A DNA stretch of 42,138 nucleotides, from positions 1 through 42,138 of the IMG/VR virus record IMGVR_UViG_3300009537_000051; one strand, written 5' to 3'. The translations under genes were made by a program, and so were the position numbers. The notes under the pieces are model-generated. The model searched no databases. It was not told the DNA's origin and saw only the letters and a program-made list of their open reading frames with translations. Within the stretch, counting starts at the first letter, position 1; each line of letters begins with the position of its first letter. Source of the stretch: a virus. This document shows, piece by piece, positions 2,712 to 42,138 of this stretch.

Positions 2712-2832
2712 AGGCTCCGACAAGCCTAATCTCAATCTACAGTAAGCCCATTGTCTACACGGTGGAAGGCTCTTAACCCTTTGGATTGGGGGGGAATTGT
2801 CGGAAGCCGGAAATCGTGTAGAGAGCGGGCTT
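2712..2832 (+). ncRNA. Structured leader RNA, copy 2 (kissing-loop element)
   Basis: Same plan as 2064-2173. H1: AGGC 2712-2715 pairs with GCCT 2724-2727 around loop TCCGACAA. The long stem has arms 2744-2761 and 2815-2832, again 18 nt each, with 16 pairs including TCTACACG/CGTGTAGA and AAGCCC/GGGCTT, followed by TTTGTT. Kissing: loop 2716-2723 is perfectly complementary (8 bp) to TTGTCGGA 2797-2804, flanked by GGGGAA and AGCC as in copy 1. The H1 closing pair is A-T here and T-A in copy 1, and the kissing and long-stem bases change together. The U-rich end of the stem resembles an intrinsic terminator upstream of the GTG at 2860. Confidence 0.75.
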
Positions 2833-2859
2833 TTTGTTACACAGTTGGAAAGGATTTTT

Positions 2860-3990
2860 GTGGACATAATCCGTTACGAAGAAAAGCGGTTGCTCAACAT
2901 CGAAGCGGCGGCGCAACTGTTAGCGGATGCGCGCACTATCCAGGAAGTCGCTGAAGTGCGTAACTATGCTGAAGCGGTGAGACTGGTTGCCCGGCAAGCT
3001 AAGGCCGGATTGGAAGTCCAAAACCAGGCGGCAGAGATTAAACTCAGAGCAGAACGCCGCGCCGGTGAGATGCTGGCAGAGATTGAACGTATAACTCCAG
3101 AGGAAAAAGGCGCATTGCTTAATCACGATGGTGTTACAAGAAACCATCGTGGATACATGGATACCCTCAAAGAAACAGACATCCCACGTACTACTGCCCA
3201 CAACTGGCAGCAAATCGCCGCTATCCCTGAGCCTGAATTTGAGCAACATATCGAAGAAACCAAAGCGGCCAAAAGGGAGCTTACCACCTCTGGCACGGTG
3301 AGAGTCGCCAAACAGTTACGCCGGGAATCCCTGCGCGATGAAATGGCGGCGAATGGGAACGGCGCTCCAGATGAGGGCGATTTATGGCAGGTCTATCAGT
3401 CAGACATTGCTCAGGCGCTCACCTATATCGAGCCGGAAAGCGTTGACGTGATTATTACCGATCCGCCATACTCGCGTGGATATTTGCCACTTTATGAAAC
3501 ATTGGCACGGGTCAGTAGCCAGATATTAAAGCCGGGCGGGTCTTTGCTAGTCATGTGTGGTCAATCCTATCTGCCTGATATATTTAACCTGATGTGCCCG
3601 TTCATGCGCTACCAGTGGACACTTGCCTATCTAACTCTAGGCGGCCAGGCGGCTCAGTTATGGGATCGCAACATAAACACGTTTTGGAAACCGGTGTTAT
3701 GGTTCGTCAATGGCGAATACAAAGGCAAATGGAACGGGGATGTTCTCAAAAGCGCTGTTAATAATAATGACAAACGCTTCCATAGTTGGGGGCAAAGTGT
3801 ATCCGGGATGCTAGATATTGTTACCCGGTTTTCAAATCCCGGCGACATTATACTTGACCCATTCTGCGGGGCAGGGACTACCGGCGTAGCTGCAATTAGG
3901 GAAGGGCGGTCATTTATTGGGTTCGATATAGACCCTGAACAAATCGCAATTACAAAAGGACGGTTGCATGACACAGCAAGTCAAACCTGA
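2860..3990 (+). CDS. DNA methyltransferase fused to helical ParB-neighbour-type domain, 376 aa
   Basis: Residues 201-205 DPPYS (catalytic motif IV) and 333-341 DPFCGAGTT (S-adenosylmethionine-binding motif I) identify an N6-adenine/N4-cytosine methyltransferase of the DNA-modifying class, with motif IV before motif I (beta-like order). The first 160 residues (RLVARQAKAGLEVQNQAAEI, then RAERRAGEML) form a helical region common in phage and actinobacterial proteins and often attached to DNA-binding modules. The start is GTG 2860, with GGAAAGGA at 2847-2854; the frame is open upstream to a TTG at 2797, but that lies in leader RNA 2. It heads the modification/replication operon and probably protects phage DNA from restriction. 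Confidence 0.85.
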   Translation: MDIIRYEEKRLLNIEAAAQLLADARTIQEVAEVRNYAEAVRLVARQAKAGLEVQNQAAEIKLRAERRAGEMLAEIERITPEEKGALLNHDGVTRNHRGYMDTLKETDIPRTTAHNWQQIAAIPEPEFEQHIEETKAAKRELTTSGTVRVAKQLRRESLRDEMAANGNGAPDEGDLWQVYQSDIAQALTYIEPESVDVIITDPPYSRGYLPLYETLARVSSQILKPGGSLLVMCGQSYLPDIFNLMCPFMRYQWTLAYLTLGGQAAQLWDRNINTFWKPVLWFVNGEYKGKWNGDVLKSAVNNNDKRFHSWGQSVSGMLDIVTRFSNPGDIILDPFCGAGTTGVAAIREGRSFIGFDIDPEQIAITKGRLHDTASQT

Positions 3991-4090: not shown

Positions 4091-5484
4091 CTAAAACTAG
4101 CGGCATTGACCATCTGCCTAATCAATCAATGGTAATGATCCGAGAGGATTATGTCGCCCTTTGTGAAGCGGTGACAAAGGAAACCGAAAAATGCCCCGAC
4201 TCAAAATGCGCGGCGGCGCTTATGAACCTATTTGAATACTGGACAAACTGGAAAGTAGCCAATGCGGAACAATCCAGACGCCATAACGATACCCGTCAAG
4301 CTGGCGGTCTGGAACGTAACCAAGACGAATCGCTGTGGATATGGAAGACAACTGATGAGTTCCATTCCGACCTCATGGGCATATGGGGCAAATCCAAAAT
4401 CGAGAAGTGCCGCAAGTGGTTGGTTAAACAAGGATTGGTACAACAGCGCAATAATCCTGACTACGGTTGGGATCGTACCATTCAGTATTTTTACGACATG
4501 CATTTAGTAAATTTAAGGATTCAATCTCTTAAAAATAAGGAAGCAATACCAAAGATTACTTCAAAGGATACTACAACCCCTCTTGTTTCGCCTTCAGGCG
4601 AAACCACCGCGCGCGCCCACGAACCAACAACAACGCCATTAATGCCCGAACCACCAACCCAACCCGCGCCAGCGATACCGGACGCTTTTACGGACAAGAA
4701 CGAACAGCCCACAGCGCCGGTGTACCAGGTGGGCGATGACGGTCAATGGCTGAAGCCGGACGCCAGTTCTCCCGATAACGGGATTAAGGCAGCAGTACCA
4801 ATGACCGCGCCCGACTGGTTCGCCAAAGGCCACGCCGCCATTATCCGCCAGGCGTTGGATAACGATACTGTGCGCGCCCACAGCGCCATAAGCGGCTGGA
4901 ACGAGGCTTGCGCGCAATTGCGGGTAGCCGGATACCTGGCTATCGTGGGTGTTGACCGGTGGCGGATAACCGAGAAGGGTAGGGCGCTTGCCAGCCACCC
5001 GTTAGTGATAGCGTTAAGGGACGCGGCGGCGGAAACGCGCCAGAAGGCCACGCCCGTTCCGGCAGGCAAGAAGGCGACCAAGCCCAAAAAGGACGGCAAG
5101 GGCAAGGGCAAAAAGCCGCCCTTCGAGTTTAGAGCTGAGTTGCAGCAATACGCTGAAGCCCTGGCGCGCTGGCGTTATAACGTGGGTTGGCGGGACGTGA
5201 ACGATGGGAGCGCCTGGGACTTGTACCGCGCTTCTGAACTGTGGTATGAGAGCGACTTCGACGTTGAAGTGTTGGCCGTCACCCTGGACTATATCAGCGC
5301 CCAGGAGTGGACAACGCCCTGCGGGTTTTCCAAGACGTTTAACCACATCATGGCGGCGCGATCCTGGAAGGCAGAGCAGCACCCAACCCTACACAGCGAC
5401 CAGGAAGTATTGCGCTCAGTGGTAGACGATTACGACGCGCCGGAACCGGACGCGAAAATAAAAGAGAAGGCGGACGGGCAATGA
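4087..5484 (+). CDS. Replication initiator / replisome organiser-like protein, 465 aa
   Basis: The first 145 residues look like a winged-helix DNA-binding domain of phage replication initiators: AALMNLFEYWTNWK, then IEKCRKWLVKQGLVQQRNN and DRTIQYFYD. A low-complexity linker rich in P, T and A follows (about 165-215), then a second, possibly winged-helix segment (about 255-305) and a lysine-rich stretch. The end (FDVEVLAVTLDYISAQEW) is helical. It lies between methyltransferases and upstream of the primase-helicase, fitting an origin-binding or helicase-loading role. An origin may lie within the gene, but I see no clear iterons. Confidence 0.6.
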   Translation: MTKTSGIDHLPNQSMVMIREDYVALCEAVTKETEKCPDSKCAAALMNLFEYWTNWKVANAEQSRRHNDTRQAGGLERNQDESLWIWKTTDEFHSDLMGIWGKSKIEKCRKWLVKQGLVQQRNNPDYGWDRTIQYFYDMHLVNLRIQSLKNKEAIPKITSKDTTTPLVSPSGETTARAHEPTTTPLMPEPPTQPAPAIPDAFTDKNEQPTAPVYQVGDDGQWLKPDASSPDNGIKAAVPMTAPDWFAKGHAAIIRQALDNDTVRAHSAISGWNEACAQLRVAGYLAIVGVDRWRITEKGRALASHPLVIALRDAAAETRQKATPVPAGKKATKPKKDGKGKGKKPPFEFRAELQQYAEALARWRYNVGWRDVNDGSAWDLYRASELWYESDFDVEVLAVTLDYISAQEWTTPCGFSKTFNHIMAARSWKAEQHPTLHSDQEVLRSVVDDYDAPEPDAKIKEKADGQ

Positions 5485-6638
5485 ACCTTAACACGATAAC
5501 CCACACCGACGCTTTATCATTTCTGCAATCGTTGCCTGATAACTGCGTTCATTGCATCATCACCAGCCCCCCTTATTGGAATTTACGCGATTATGGCGTC
5601 GATGGGCAACTCGGTCTGGAACCCACCCTCACCGAATACCTGGACAACCTGACCTCCATCTTTACCGAAGCCCGCCGGGTGCTGCGTGAGGACGGCGTAA
5701 TGTGGCTCAACATGGGGGACGGGTATGCAGCGACAACTAAAGGAAATAATAACGGAACCGGTGCCTCAACATTAAACAATGGGGCGGGCGGGGGCGCTGC
5801 GGATAAGGCAGTTAATACACCACCGCGCAAAGTTGAACTAGCTGGCCTCAAACCCAAAGACCTCATCGGCCAACCCTGGCGCTTGGCCTTCCGTCTGCAA
5901 GACGACGGCTGGTGGCTGCGCTCAGACATCATCTGGTTCAAGCCTAATCCCCTTCCCGAAAGCGTGACCGACCGCCCGACTAAATCCCACGAGTATGTGT
6001 TCCTGATGACCAAATCGGCGCGCTATTGGTATGATGCGTATGCGATACGGGAGGCAATGGTTAAAGGCGATAGCAATTCAGGCGCTAAAAATTATAGGAT
6101 TACTGAGAACGGCACATCCCGCAAACATGTGGGGCAATCGCGCATTGACAACCCCGCAGGCCGCAACAAGCGCACGGTCTGGCGCGTGGCAACCGCGGCC
6201 ATGAAAGCCGCGCATTTCGCAACATTTCCCCCGGCGTTGATTAGACCGATGGTCCTGGCCGGGTGTCCGCCCAAAGTATGCGTCGAGTGTGGCAAGCCCT
6301 GGGAACGGGTGGTTGAGCCTACCGAAGAATATAAACAACAGTTAGGTAAAGGTTGGAATGACCACGAAAACAGGTTGCGTGTTGGCCACATCAAACGAGG
6401 GAAACAATTGACCGCAGCATATATTTCCACCGGATTCCAACCCACCTGCGGCCATGACGCGCCCACCGAACCCGGCATCGTCCTCGACATGTTCATGGGC
6501 GCAGGCACAACCGCCCTGGTCGCCACCCAACACGGACGGCGCTGGTTAGGCTGCGAGTTGAACGCCGATTATATCGACATTGCCAATGACCGGTTATCGG
6601 TTGTCCAGGTTAACATGTTTACCAGCGAGGGATTATGA
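5481..6638 (+). CDS. Site-specific DNA methyltransferase, SPPYW type, 385 aa
   Basis: Motif IV is SPPYW at residues 29-33 and motif I is FMGAGTT at 338-344, giving the beta-class order. SPPY is most often linked with N4-cytosine transfer but also occurs in adenine enzymes, so the base is left open. A cysteine cluster near residue 260 (CPPKVCVECG, later TCGHD) is a zinc-binding insert seen in related enzymes. It overlaps the genes on both sides by ATGA. No restriction endonuclease is encoded nearby, so it is a solitary methyltransferase, presumably anti-restriction or regulatory. Confidence 0.9.
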   Translation: MNLNTITHTDALSFLQSLPDNCVHCIITSPPYWNLRDYGVDGQLGLEPTLTEYLDNLTSIFTEARRVLREDGVMWLNMGDGYAATTKGNNNGTGASTLNNGAGGGAADKAVNTPPRKVELAGLKPKDLIGQPWRLAFRLQDDGWWLRSDIIWFKPNPLPESVTDRPTKSHEYVFLMTKSARYWYDAYAIREAMVKGDSNSGAKNYRITENGTSRKHVGQSRIDNPAGRNKRTVWRVATAAMKAAHFATFPPALIRPMVLAGCPPKVCVECGKPWERVVEPTEEYKQQLGKGWNDHENRLRVGHIKRGKQLTAAYISTGFQPTCGHDAPTEPGIVLDMFMGAGTTALVATQHGRRWLGCELNADYIDIANDRLSVVQVNMFTSEGL

Positions 6639-7417
6639 CCGCCGACGCGATTAAAGCCAACAGCGTACACCATAGCGACATCTTCGATTTATGCGCCCAG
6701 TTGCCCGATGCCTCGGTGGATATGATTTTATGCGATTTACCCTACGGCGTTACCGCGTGTGAGTGGGATGTGCGCATACCGGTGGAACCGATGTGGCAGG
6801 CGTTTAAGCGGGTGATTAAACCACGCGGGGCGATTGTCTTGACCGCAACCAACCCGTTCGCCGCCGAACTAATTATGAGTAATTTGGAGTGGTTTAAGTA
6901 TGAGTGGGTTTGGGATAAAAAACATGCAGGCAACTTTCTTACTGTGCATATCAAGCCATTAATGGTAACAGAATATGCCCTAGTGTTCTCATCTCAAAGC
7001 GTCTCATATTATCCGCAATTAAGGCGAGGGAGAATGCGGACAAAAGGCGGCGGTGGGTTATGCCGGGTTAACGGTCTTTTTCCTCAAAAGACCGTTAATA
7101 ATCTATATCATCCCACCAATATTCTTGTATTTAGTAACGCAGCAAAGAGCGGCCTTCACCCAACCCAAAAGCCCGTCGCCCTATTTGAGTACCTCATACG
7201 CACCTACACCCAACCGGGCGAAGTGGTATTTGACCCGTGCGTTGGTTCTGGCACAACCGCTATAGCGGCACGTAAATGCGGACGCCAGTTCATTGTAGGC
7301 GATATGCTTGAGGAGTACGTAGAGATAACTCGCGAGCGGCTGGCGGAACCGTACACAATAGATATGTTCGACCAACCGGAACCGGAAGCCGCGCCCACAC
7401 AACAGGAGCTACTATGA
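6635..7417 (+). CDS. DNA adenine methyltransferase-like, DLPYG type, 260 aa
   Basis: Motif IV is DLPYG at residues 34-38, motif I is DPCVGSGTT at 200-208, and HPTQKPV just before motif I matches the family of small phage beta-class adenine methyltransferases. It is the third methyltransferase in 4.6 kb. Its first 31 coding bases are almost identical to those of the next, unrelated gene (both proteins carry MTADAIKA). The C-terminal 20 residues are acidic and proline-rich. Confidence 0.9.
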   Translation: MTADAIKANSVHHSDIFDLCAQLPDASVDMILCDLPYGVTACEWDVRIPVEPMWQAFKRVIKPRGAIVLTATNPFAAELIMSNLEWFKYEWVWDKKHAGNFLTVHIKPLMVTEYALVFSSQSVSYYPQLRRGRMRTKGGGGLCRVNGLFPQKTVNNLYHPTNILVFSNAAKSGLHPTQKPVALFEYLIRTYTQPGEVVFDPCVGSGTTAIAARKCGRQFIVGDMLEEYVEITRERLAEPYTIDMFDQPEPEAAPTQQELL

Positions 7418-39124: not shown

Positions 39125-39394
39125 CTAGCAGCAATTCTCCTCCACCTCATCGAGCATGGTAGACGTGCTGGTGTCCCAGCCTTCTTTCTGGAGCAGGCTT
39201 AAAGCAAAAACCCGGTGGTTGCCGCCGCGCACGATGCCGCGCCAGACGATTTCCGGGTTATGGAAGCCTAAAGTTTTTATGCTGGTAAAAATTGCTCCGA
39301 CATCGCCCTGGTTAGGGTTCCCCTGCCAGGTCTGGAACGCGGACAAGTACGCCCATTGCAACTGAGTTTCAACTGACATATCCCCTGCGCTCAA
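39125..39394 (-). CDS. ParB-like nuclease-domain protein, 89 aa, TTG start
   Basis: NPNQGDVGAIFTSIKTLGFH, then VRGGNHRVFALSLLQKEGW matches the N-terminal ParB/Srx-like domain, whose hallmark is G-x-x-R with a neighbouring histidine (GGNHRVFAL). It is far shorter than partition ParB and lacks a DNA-binding domain. TTG 39394 has GGGAGG about seven bases upstream on the minus strand; ATG 39379 lacks such spacing. It is the only confident minus-strand gene. It could modulate the early promoter next to it or act as an anti-host factor. Confidence 0.7.
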   Translation of the reverse strand: MSAGDMSVETQLQWAYLSAFQTWQGNPNQGDVGAIFTSIKTLGFHNPEIVWRGIVRGGNHRVFALSLLQKEGWDTSTSTMLDEVEENCC

Positions 39395-39481: not shown

Positions 39482-39543
39482 TGTACATTAATACTCTATG
39501 AGAGTGTACATAGTTGCCCTGTAAATGCTTGACATTATGTACA
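39482..39543 (+). promoter_or_regulatory. Operator-like repeats of TGTACA
   Basis: TGTACA occurs at 39482-39487, 39505-39510 and 39538-39543. Between the first two lies the dyad ACTCT-ATG-AGAGT (39493-39505). The nine-base ACATTATGT is repeated in tandem at 39532-39540 and 39541-39549, within the promoter spacer. Such a cluster around a promoter is what repressor binding sites look like. Confidence 0.55.
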
Positions 39544-39557
39544 TTATGTTGTATGAT
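39529..39557 (+). promoter_or_regulatory. Strong early promoter
   Basis: TTGACA at 39529-39534 and TATGAT at 39552-39557, spacer 17 bases. It drives the early small-gene block with the hammerhead ribozymes. One TGTACA and both ACATTATGT units overlap it, so it is probably controlled by a repressor. Confidence 0.8.
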
Positions 39558-39591: not shown

Positions 39592-39810
39592 ATGAACCAG
39601 ATAAACGGAATGACCATAAGCCAGGGAACCAAATGGATTAGCCGGAACCCCAAAACCGGCAAAAACGAAGAAATCCATGAAGAAGACGAGTTGATAATCG
39701 GTAGTTACGCCCTCCGGTTAGACTGGTCAAATGAATGCAAACGCTACGTTACCACCGCAGGCAGTCTGCACAAACTGACCAGCAATGGTTGGGAAATGGA
39801 AATCGACTAA
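39592..39810 (+). CDS. Small early protein, 72 aa
   Basis: Not recognised. First gene after the early promoter, with TAGGAG upstream. The product MNQINGMTISQGTKWISRNP is followed by a beta-rich, acidic middle. Its stop lies one base before the first hammerhead. Confidence 0.65.
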   Translation: MNQINGMTISQGTKWISRNPKTGKNEEIHEEDELIIGSYALRLDWSNECKRYVTTAGSLHKLTSNGWEMEID

Positions 39811-39811
39811 C

Positions 39812-39865
39812 AAGTCGAAACCGGGGCAACCCGGTCAACCGGTCACGCCGGTTCTGATGAGGCTA
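39812..39865 (+). ncRNA. Hammerhead ribozyme 1 (type II topology)
   Basis: All core parts are present in order. Stem II strand AGUC 39813-39816, then GAAA 39817-39820. Stem III ACCGGG 39820-39825 pairs with CCCGGU 39830-39835, closed by a GCAA tetraloop. The cleavage triplet GUC ends at 39836. Stem I AACCGG 39837-39842 pairs with CCGGUU 39848-39853. Core CUGAUGA is at 39854-39860, and stem II partner GGCU at 39861-39864 pairs with AGUC (one G-U). Expected cut: between 39836 and 39837. It separates the gene at 39592 from the downstream genes. Confidence 0.92.
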
Positions 39866-39968
39866 AAGACAGGAGGATGTTGCGCTATACGAACCACGAC
39901 ACGTTGGTGATGCAACTGAACGAAGTCCCATTTTGATCGAGGTAGCAAACACAAATAGGAGAATGACC

Positions 39969-40184
39969 ATGGCAACCATTAGTTTACCTACACCCGATAA
40001 TCTCATGGCCGACGGCGGAATCTGCGCCAATGAACAATGCGGTCATGAAGATTGCCAGGAAGCCCGCGCCTTAGCCGCACGGGTCTGCATTCTATGTAAG
40101 CATAGTCTCGGTTATGAGACGTTACTCTATTGGCATCCAGACGAGGAAGCGTGGACGCACCTACGCTGCCCCCTGGAGAAGTGA
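39969..40184 (+). CDS. Zinc-finger-like early protein, 71 aa
   Basis: Contains CANEQCGHEDC near residues 18-28 and CILCKH near 40, with later H and C residues (YWHPDEEAWTHLRC): two metal-binding clusters. ATG 39969 is best spaced from TAGGAG at 39955-39960. It lies between the two hammerheads, so its message would be released at both ends by self-cleavage. Confidence 0.65.
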   Translation: MATISLPTPDNLMADGGICANEQCGHEDCQEARALAARVCILCKHSLGYETLLYWHPDEEAWTHLRCPLEK

Positions 40185-40195
40185 AGATGATCGTT

Positions 40196-40248
40196 AAGTC
40201 GAAACCGGGTTCGCCCGGTCAACCGGTCACGCCGGTTCTGATGAGACT
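40196..40248 (+). ncRNA. Hammerhead ribozyme 2 (type II topology)
   Basis: Same design as 39812. AGUC 40197-40200, GAAA 40201-40204. Stem III ACCGGG 40204-40209 pairs with CCCGGU 40214-40219 over a UUCG tetraloop. Cleavage after GUC at 40220. Stem I AACCGG 40221-40226 pairs with CCGGUU 40232-40237. CUGAUGA is at 40238-40244 and GACU 40245-40248 pairs perfectly with AGUC. Differences from copy 1 are limited to the tetraloop (UUCG for GCAA) and a wobble-to-pair change in stem II, so both folds are preserved. Confidence 0.93.
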
Positions 40249-40270
40249 AAACTAGACAGGAGATGCAGAG

Positions 40271-40522
40271 ATGGAAATTAACGAAAAAGACTTGGTCAAA
40301 TTGTTAGACGGTGAAATTTACAAAGCCCATGTAATCTGGCGGAAAGCTCATTATGACGGCGACCCTACTGATGATGCCGCCTTTTTAGAATGGGGCACAT
40401 TTGAAAACGTCACCCTGGAATGGATTGGCGGCCAAGACTTTTTTATCCTCGGCAGCGATAGTGATGAAATGGTCGCAGGGTTCACAATTTCCGTTGATGA
40501 AATTCTGGACATTGTACTCTAA
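40271..40522 (+). CDS. Small early protein, 83 aa
   Basis: Not recognised. Acidic; starts MEINEKDLVKLLDGEIYKAH and ends ISVDEILDIVL. Its leader AGGAGATGCAGAG is nearly the same as that of the gene at 39592. It is the first gene downstream of hammerhead 2. Confidence 0.65.
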   Translation: MEINEKDLVKLLDGEIYKAHVIWRKAHYDGDPTDDAAFLEWGTFENVTLEWIGGQDFFILGSDSDEMVAGFTISVDEILDIVL

Positions 40523-41800: not shown

Positions 41801-42138
41801 ATGCAACCTACCAATCAGAAATATGAACTGACCAACGAAACCAGGACGCTCGATGGCGGTGGTGTGCTCCACCGTATTCGGGCGTTGCGCGATTTTGGCA
41901 AAGTGAAAGCGGGCGACCTGGGCGGCTGGATCGAGAGCGAAAAGAACCTATCGCACAAAGGCGACTGTTGGGTGTATGACCATGCGCTGGTGTACGACCA
42001 TGCGCGGGTGTACGACAATGCGCGGGTGTTCGGCAATGCGTGGGTGTACGGCAGTGCGTGGGTGTACGGCGCTGCGCAGGTGTACGACGATGCGCGGGTG
42101 TACGACAATGCGTGGGTGCGCGGCGCTGCGCGGGTGTA
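41801..42138 (+). CDS. Hexapeptide-repeat left-handed beta-helix protein, N-terminal part
   Basis: Starts at ATG 41801 and runs off the contig, joining the frame at base 3. The first 60 residues (KYELTNETRTLDGGGVLHRI, then FGKVKAGDLGGWIESEKNLS) form the conserved cap found before such repeats in phage proteins; hexapeptide units (VYDHAL, VYDNAR, VFGNAW) begin at GDCWVYDH. The DNA is an 18-bp tandem repeat, so unit number can change easily. Confidence 0.85.
   Translation, partial: MQPTNQKYELTNETRTLDGGGVLHRIRALRDFGKVKAGDLGGWIESEKNLSHKGDCWVYDHALVYDHARVYDNARVFGNAWVYGSAWVYGAAQVYDDARVYDNAWVRGAARV
41960..42138 (+). repeat. 18-bp tandem repeats coding for hexapeptides
   Basis: Units related to GTGTACGACAATGCGCGG continue across the junction to about base 375, around 26 in all. 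Larger blocks are also duplicated: the order VYGAAQ, VYDDAR, VYDNA is found near base 3 and again near base 135. The 79-bp contig overlap lies inside this array, so copy number is uncertain. Confidence 0.85.
42060..42138. repeat. Terminal direct repeat, right copy
   Basis: Identical to bases 1-79; see the left copy. The exact 79-base length is typical of an assembler overlap and should not be read as a packaging repeat. Confidence 0.9.

Follow-up and report, generated by a model that had tools for sequence, protein, structure and literature searches.

Two compact type II hammerhead ribozymes bracket a small gene near the start of a probable early operon in a phage genome

Analysis of a 42,138-base phage sequence (IMG/VR record IMGVR_UViG_3300009537_000051, positions 1 to 42,138; the whole stretch is hereafter called the window) revealed two genuine type II hammerhead ribozymes on the plus strand, at positions 39813-39864 (hammerhead 1) and 40197-40248 (hammerhead 2). 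Both were identified by motif reading, by folding and with a covariance model, and both belong to a compact sub-type that Rfam's model under-scores, which is what is new here. They are located in the first two junctions of a probable early operon. The explanation that we consider quite probable is that both hammerheads are active and split the polycistronic mRNA into hairpin-ended pieces. From the sequence, the fold, the covariation among relatives and the position at gene junctions, we infer cleavage, processing and protection of the RNA ends.

Both copies read AGUC-GAA-ACCGGG, followed by the tetraloop (GCAA in hammerhead 1, UUCG in hammerhead 2), then by CCCGGU-C^AACCGG-UCACG-CCGGUU-CUGAUGA-G, by G in the first copy or A in the second, and by CU, as established by direct reading and a motif scan (the caret marks the predicted cut, after C39836 in hammerhead 1 and after C40220 in hammerhead 2). 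Each copy is 52 nt long and the offset between them is exactly 384 nt. The hammerhead core is complete in both (CUGANGA, GAAA and a UH cleavage triplet) and every core nucleotide is consensus. Stem I contains six pairs plus one U-G, stem II four pairs and stem III six pairs, with stem II open as in the type II permutation. In both copies, the minimum free energy fold obtained without constraints is the hammerhead secondary structure; three helices surround the core and this fold is favoured. Comparison of positions 39812-39867 with 40196-40251 showed 51 identities out of 56 and unrelated flanks, the differences being confined to the tetraloop (all four bases) and a single base of stem II (G-U versus A-U). 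The first-pass annotation of this DNA had proposed two complete type II hammerheads 384 bases apart, differing only at the tetraloop and in one stem II pair and cut after 39836 and 40220. Direct reading and the scan of both strands confirm the copies, the alignment confirms their differences, and the cut positions are correct as predicted from the motif. Its statement that both tetraloops are very stable was overstated. The UUCG tetraloop is specially stable with a C-G closing pair; in copy 2 it is closed by G-C, and the hairpin of this copy computes 1.4 kcal/mol weaker than that of copy 1. Among the matches listed, no other loop III sequence is as common as UUCG or GCAA, and the tetraloops of the window are thus ordinary.

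A scan for the core and three stems on both strands found no further hammerhead copy in the window. When the window was shuffled 100 times (first-order shuffles), loose matches appeared at 0.02 per shuffled window and strong matches in 0/100. The Rfam search suggested in the first-pass annotation found nothing at the gathering threshold; below it, RF02276 (Hammerhead_II, gathering cut-off 37 bits) matched copies 1 and 2 with 31.5 and 30.2 bits (E 3e-4 and 7e-4). Taken by itself, a score under this threshold would suit inactive relics or chance matches. On ten loci, Rfam placed 18/18 motifs of a long group, described below, above gathering, versus 1/22 of the compact motifs other than the window pair. 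The window pair is missed at gathering because the compact sub-type is under-scored, as the failure of 21 of these 22 other compact motifs also indicates. A covariance model of the sub-type, made from 27 compact motifs of other contigs with the window left out, gave 69.1 and 72.9 bits for the two copies (E about 1e-17), the next best match reaching 10.1. In the compact alignment, compensatory change was found in 13 of 16 stem pairs (108 cells, 0/500 shuffles); its members were picked for pairing, which makes this covariation partly circular and the figure of 100% paired partly built in. Two intact copies, the absence of strong matches from all 100 shuffled windows and the high score with the sub-type model argue against relics or chance, which we consider most improbable.

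The compact sub-type was recognized in a sample of 248 type II motifs (241 distinct, among the matches listed) from viral contigs, species genomes and Streptomyces phages. The recruiting pattern contained CCGG in stem III, and frequencies among the matches listed are not population values. Hairpin I length divides this sample into two groups among the matches listed. In the compact group, hairpin I is 17 nt long and stem II has at least 4 pairs in 63/65 motifs; in the long group, hairpin I has at least 20 nt and stem II mostly 2-3 pairs (both among the matches listed). The long group carries the known pseudoknot between loop I and the tail, the longest complement between them being 4.3 versus 3.1 in shuffled sequences and at least 4 in 80% of cases among the matches listed. 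For the compact group, again among the matches listed, the mean longest complement is 2.39 versus 2.33 shuffled. A loop I/tail pseudoknot of at least 4 bp was also sought in the window copies and rejected, the longest complement being 3 in both.

Compact motifs share a near-invariant U at loop I position 1 and an A just 5' of stem II, both found in 58/63 among the matches listed. The window copies have every feature of the group, namely a 17-nt hairpin I, a 4-bp stem II, a loop of the form GU...A and an A just 5' of stem II. By analogy, the loop I U and the 5' A may form a contact resembling the reverse Hoogsteen contact of type I and III hammerheads (PMC6155905). In one contig of the sample, with compact motifs at 235 and 654, loop I has A for U together with U for A before stem II, an exchange that hints at pairing between the two positions. 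Two more motifs with A in the loop, on other contigs, are without the reciprocal exchange. Since the window pair lacks the pseudoknot, its cleavage speed at cellular Mg2+ would hinge on this putative tertiary contact.

The two ribozymes are located between small genes of the plus strand. Gene 1 (39592-39810, 72 aa, no family match) has a stop codon that ends 2 nt before hammerhead 1. Gene 2 (39969-40184, 71 aa, cysteine-rich) is bracketed by the two ribozymes, starting 104 nt after hammerhead 1 and ending with a stop codon 12 nt before hammerhead 2. Gene 3 (40271-40522, 83 aa, no family match) starts 22 nt past hammerhead 2, preceded by an AGGAG ribosome-binding site (40258-40262, plus strand) that lies 9 nt past this ribozyme. 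The gaps holding the ribozymes, which had been described as short, are 158 nt (first) and 86 nt long; a mini-ORF of 19 codons (39877-39936, MLRYTNHDTLVMQLNEVPF) shares the first gap with hammerhead 1. This mini-ORF begins 12 nt past hammerhead 1 with AGGAGG immediately before its ATG, and is perhaps a gene remnant or a leader peptide. Ribozymes are present only in the first two junctions of the operon, the following junctions being at most 24 nt long. The gene 2 protein contains the motifs CANEQCGHEDC and CILC; judged by its sequence, it is likely a zinc-binding mini-protein. No relatives of genes 2, 3 and 4 were found in the viral contigs searched.

Self-cleavage of the window hammerheads, as we infer it from their sequence, would occur once each hammerhead has folded, after the ribosome has cleared the abutting stop codon, with the cut falling between stem III and stem I. 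Hammerhead cleavage at C17 leaves a 5'-OH and a 2',3'-cyclic phosphate, and among the permutations only in type II does the cut fall between two hairpins that are both complete. Stem III would therefore remain whole at every new 3' end, and stem I at every new 5' end, which would carry a 5'-OH. For hammerhead 1, the stem III hairpin (39819-39836, plus strand) would terminate the upstream product, with a 2',3'-cyclic phosphate expected at C39836 from the established mechanism, and the stem I hairpin (39837-39853, plus strand) would open the downstream product with an expected 5'-OH. Three products would result: the gene 1 RNA, a 384-nt RNA (39837-40220) on which gene 2 would stand alone, and an RNA beginning with gene 3. 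The first-pass annotation had also proposed a hairpin at each new end, and the predicted fold of the excised 384-nt RNA supports this with a hairpin at both termini; as a counterpoint, one calculation has the folded downstream leader (39837-39975) in competition with the stem I hairpin. Pieces with such hairpins and 5'-OH ends should resist 3'-5' exonucleases as well as RNase E, which depends on a 5'-monophosphate, and this protection may make the stability and dosage of each gene independent of its neighbours. The likely outcome of this model would be short, end-protected mRNAs.

The 384-nt gene 2 RNA could also, once released, be joined into a circular mRNA by an RtcB-type ligase, as in retrozymes. 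The two hammerheads bracket one unit, the expected 2',3'-cyclic phosphate and 5'-OH would be an RtcB substrate, and eukaryotic retrozymes do make circles from hammerhead-bracketed RNA (PMC7761336). However, a scan of roughly 40 window proteins showed no RNA ligase, both RNA ends would be sequestered in hairpins, and in other arrays the intervals differ freely in length and content, without a preferred frame (mod 3 counts of 43/41/41 among the matches listed). Perreault 2011 detected no circular or spliced products of phage arrays (PMC3088659), and we find a circular product very unlikely.

Analysis of the gene environment of the 248 motifs, among the matches listed, revealed a near-constant spacing. 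The distance from the upstream stop codon to the motif has a median of 2 nt (IQR -1 to 9) versus 166 at random positions of the same loci, and the distance from the motif to the next start with a ribosome-binding site is 24 nt (IQR 19 to 31) versus 128 at random, both among the matches listed. An active cutter would need a placement of this kind, which never truncates a gene. Neither this spacing rule nor the compact sub-type was found stated in the papers compared, and we make no claim of a first report. Proximity to stop codons could reflect a regulated cut, in which a terminating ribosome would cover stem II and GAAA, so that cleavage reports upstream translation, or in which a ligand or condition would tune cleavage. 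The window motifs start 2 and 12 nt past stops, within the footprint of a terminating ribosome, and the median stop-to-motif distance is 2 nt in 222 other cases among the matches listed. Genome compaction explains such tight spacing equally, the loops are minimal and an aptamer-like insert is absent; regulation of the cut seems unlikely to us.

Arrays of up to 16 hammerheads per record were found among the matches listed, in viral contigs, prophages and isolated Streptomyces phages, and the window pair, with copies on one strand at gene junctions, is itself such an array. The record IMGVR_UViG_3300017605_000570 contains sixteen hammerhead model matches in about 6 kb, many of which are separated by a few hundred nt. 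When a single ribozyme was compared with phages by Blast, half matches only were returned, and these pointed to Streptomyces phages. Salutena (MT708548.1) and Thestral (NC_054670.1) carry 10 and 9 model matches, the hammerheads being unannotated. In Salutena, an annotated gene stops 0-21 nt before the ribozyme at 7/8 sites and the next annotated start lies 19-42 nt after it at six sites. Two start codons in the Salutena annotation overlap with ribozymes; their positions are probably wrong. An apparent link of Streptomyces phages with aminoglycosides was merely a passing citation and was set aside, as was a match to a Christensenellales phage, which is without a hammerhead by the model. In species genomes, a strict pattern search gave no match; a looser pattern matched 46 stretches, and among them were paired compact hammerheads in Promineifilum and Clostridia records. 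The exact stem I pattern of the window is absent from the viral contigs searched.

Copies from one contig resemble each other more closely than copies from different contigs (hairpin I, 58% versus 47%; stem II, 93% versus 72%), a likeness that for hairpin I was reached in 0/500 label shuffles, and the homology of the window copies ends at the motif edge. These features would fit seams for recombination at the DNA level, used for swapping small genes, with ribozyme activity incidental. However, a function at the DNA level would preserve primary sequence, whereas the stems change by compensatory pairs around a fixed core and copies of an array often differ. Recombination seams are accordingly, in our judgement, highly improbable.

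Processing of an operon by a tandem pair had been put forward as distinctive, a view that does not hold, as the layout was described in 2011 (PMC3088659) and is widespread in our scans; the window pair is a clear addition to the known phage tandem hammerheads. Perreault 2011 reported natural type II hammerheads, including prophage clusters flanking single genes; three arrays were cleaved in vitro and one also within E. coli; 4/18 consensus hammerheads were inactive in vitro (PMC3088659). The window copies resemble RF02276 (PMC3088659) in the CUGAUGA/GAAA/UC core, the open stem II, the closed stems I and III and the location at phage gene junctions, but have a 5-nt loop I and a 4-bp stem II and are without the loop I/tail pseudoknot. 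As in the clustered prophage hammerheads (the Agrobacterium ardA triple, Clostridium scindens and Azorhizobium; PMC3088659), close copies bracket single small genes; in those clusters cleavage was demonstrated and the flanking genes are others, whereas for the window pair it is predicted. The HHphage of haloviruses HF1/HF2 also lies just upstream of an early gene start, at 13 nt versus 22 nt for hammerhead 2, and the RNA 5' end in vivo maps within 3 nt of the cut (PMC3088659). Unlike the window pair, it has a variant core, belongs to a virus of an archaeal host and is described as a single hammerhead before a helicase gene. The Salutena and Thestral arrays are likewise mainly between small non-structural genes, but mostly of the longer-loop sub-type with a 2-3-bp stem II. 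The theta (HDV-like) ribozymes of gut phages (PMC10879173) are also self-cleaving RNAs of phage genomes, of another ribozyme class and tied to suppressor tRNAs.

A review noted that hammerheads flank ORFs for small non-conserved proteins and are phage-linked, and called their role an open question (PMC6155905). Taken together, the data allow a broader reading, to which we give slightly less than even weight: type II hammerheads would be a general punctuation of phage non-structural operons, set about 2 nt after a stop and about 24 nt before a start, each cut giving mRNA that both begins and ends in a hairpin. The window pair and about one quarter of the sampled motifs would be compact, with the loop I U/5' A contact replacing the pseudoknot in the manner of the type I/III reverse Hoogsteen pair, and would be systematically under-reported by Rfam. 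Databases thus seem to undercount phage hammerheads. Their role becomes testable with the spacing rule, the compact sub-type and the arrays carried by cultivated Streptomyces phages.

The early setting claimed in the first-pass annotation is supported as probable. A sigma-70-like promoter (TTGACA-17-TATGAT, 39529-39557, plus strand) agreeing with 11 of 12 consensus positions is located upstream of the ribozyme operon; promoter-like sites overall in the window are at chance expectation. The operon probably continues across the contig ends into replication genes, with a regulator, methyltransferases and a DnaG-type primase, and the ribozymes are thus probably at the head of an early operon with a strong promoter. 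Terminase, portal, capsid and tail genes are found at 15-34 kb. The record probably represents a phage genome that is circular or permuted and was opened within one repeat-rich gene, because the genes cut at its ends (left, 3-602; right, 41801-42138) match the same PHROGs (phrog_5070 and phrog_7964) and the right end falls inside an 18-nt repeat array. Hammerheads are absent from 10 contigs with terminase relatives, fragments of 4-33 kb (about 50% identical) that do not assess conservation at the ribozyme locus. Around the early promoter, TGTACA repeats at 39482 and 39505 and an ATGTAC at 39537 could be repressor operators, and a ParB-like gene lies nearby on the minus strand (39125-39394). 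The DNA methyltransferase PHROG phrog_67 is matched by three ORFs (2797-3990, 5481-6638 and 6635-7417).
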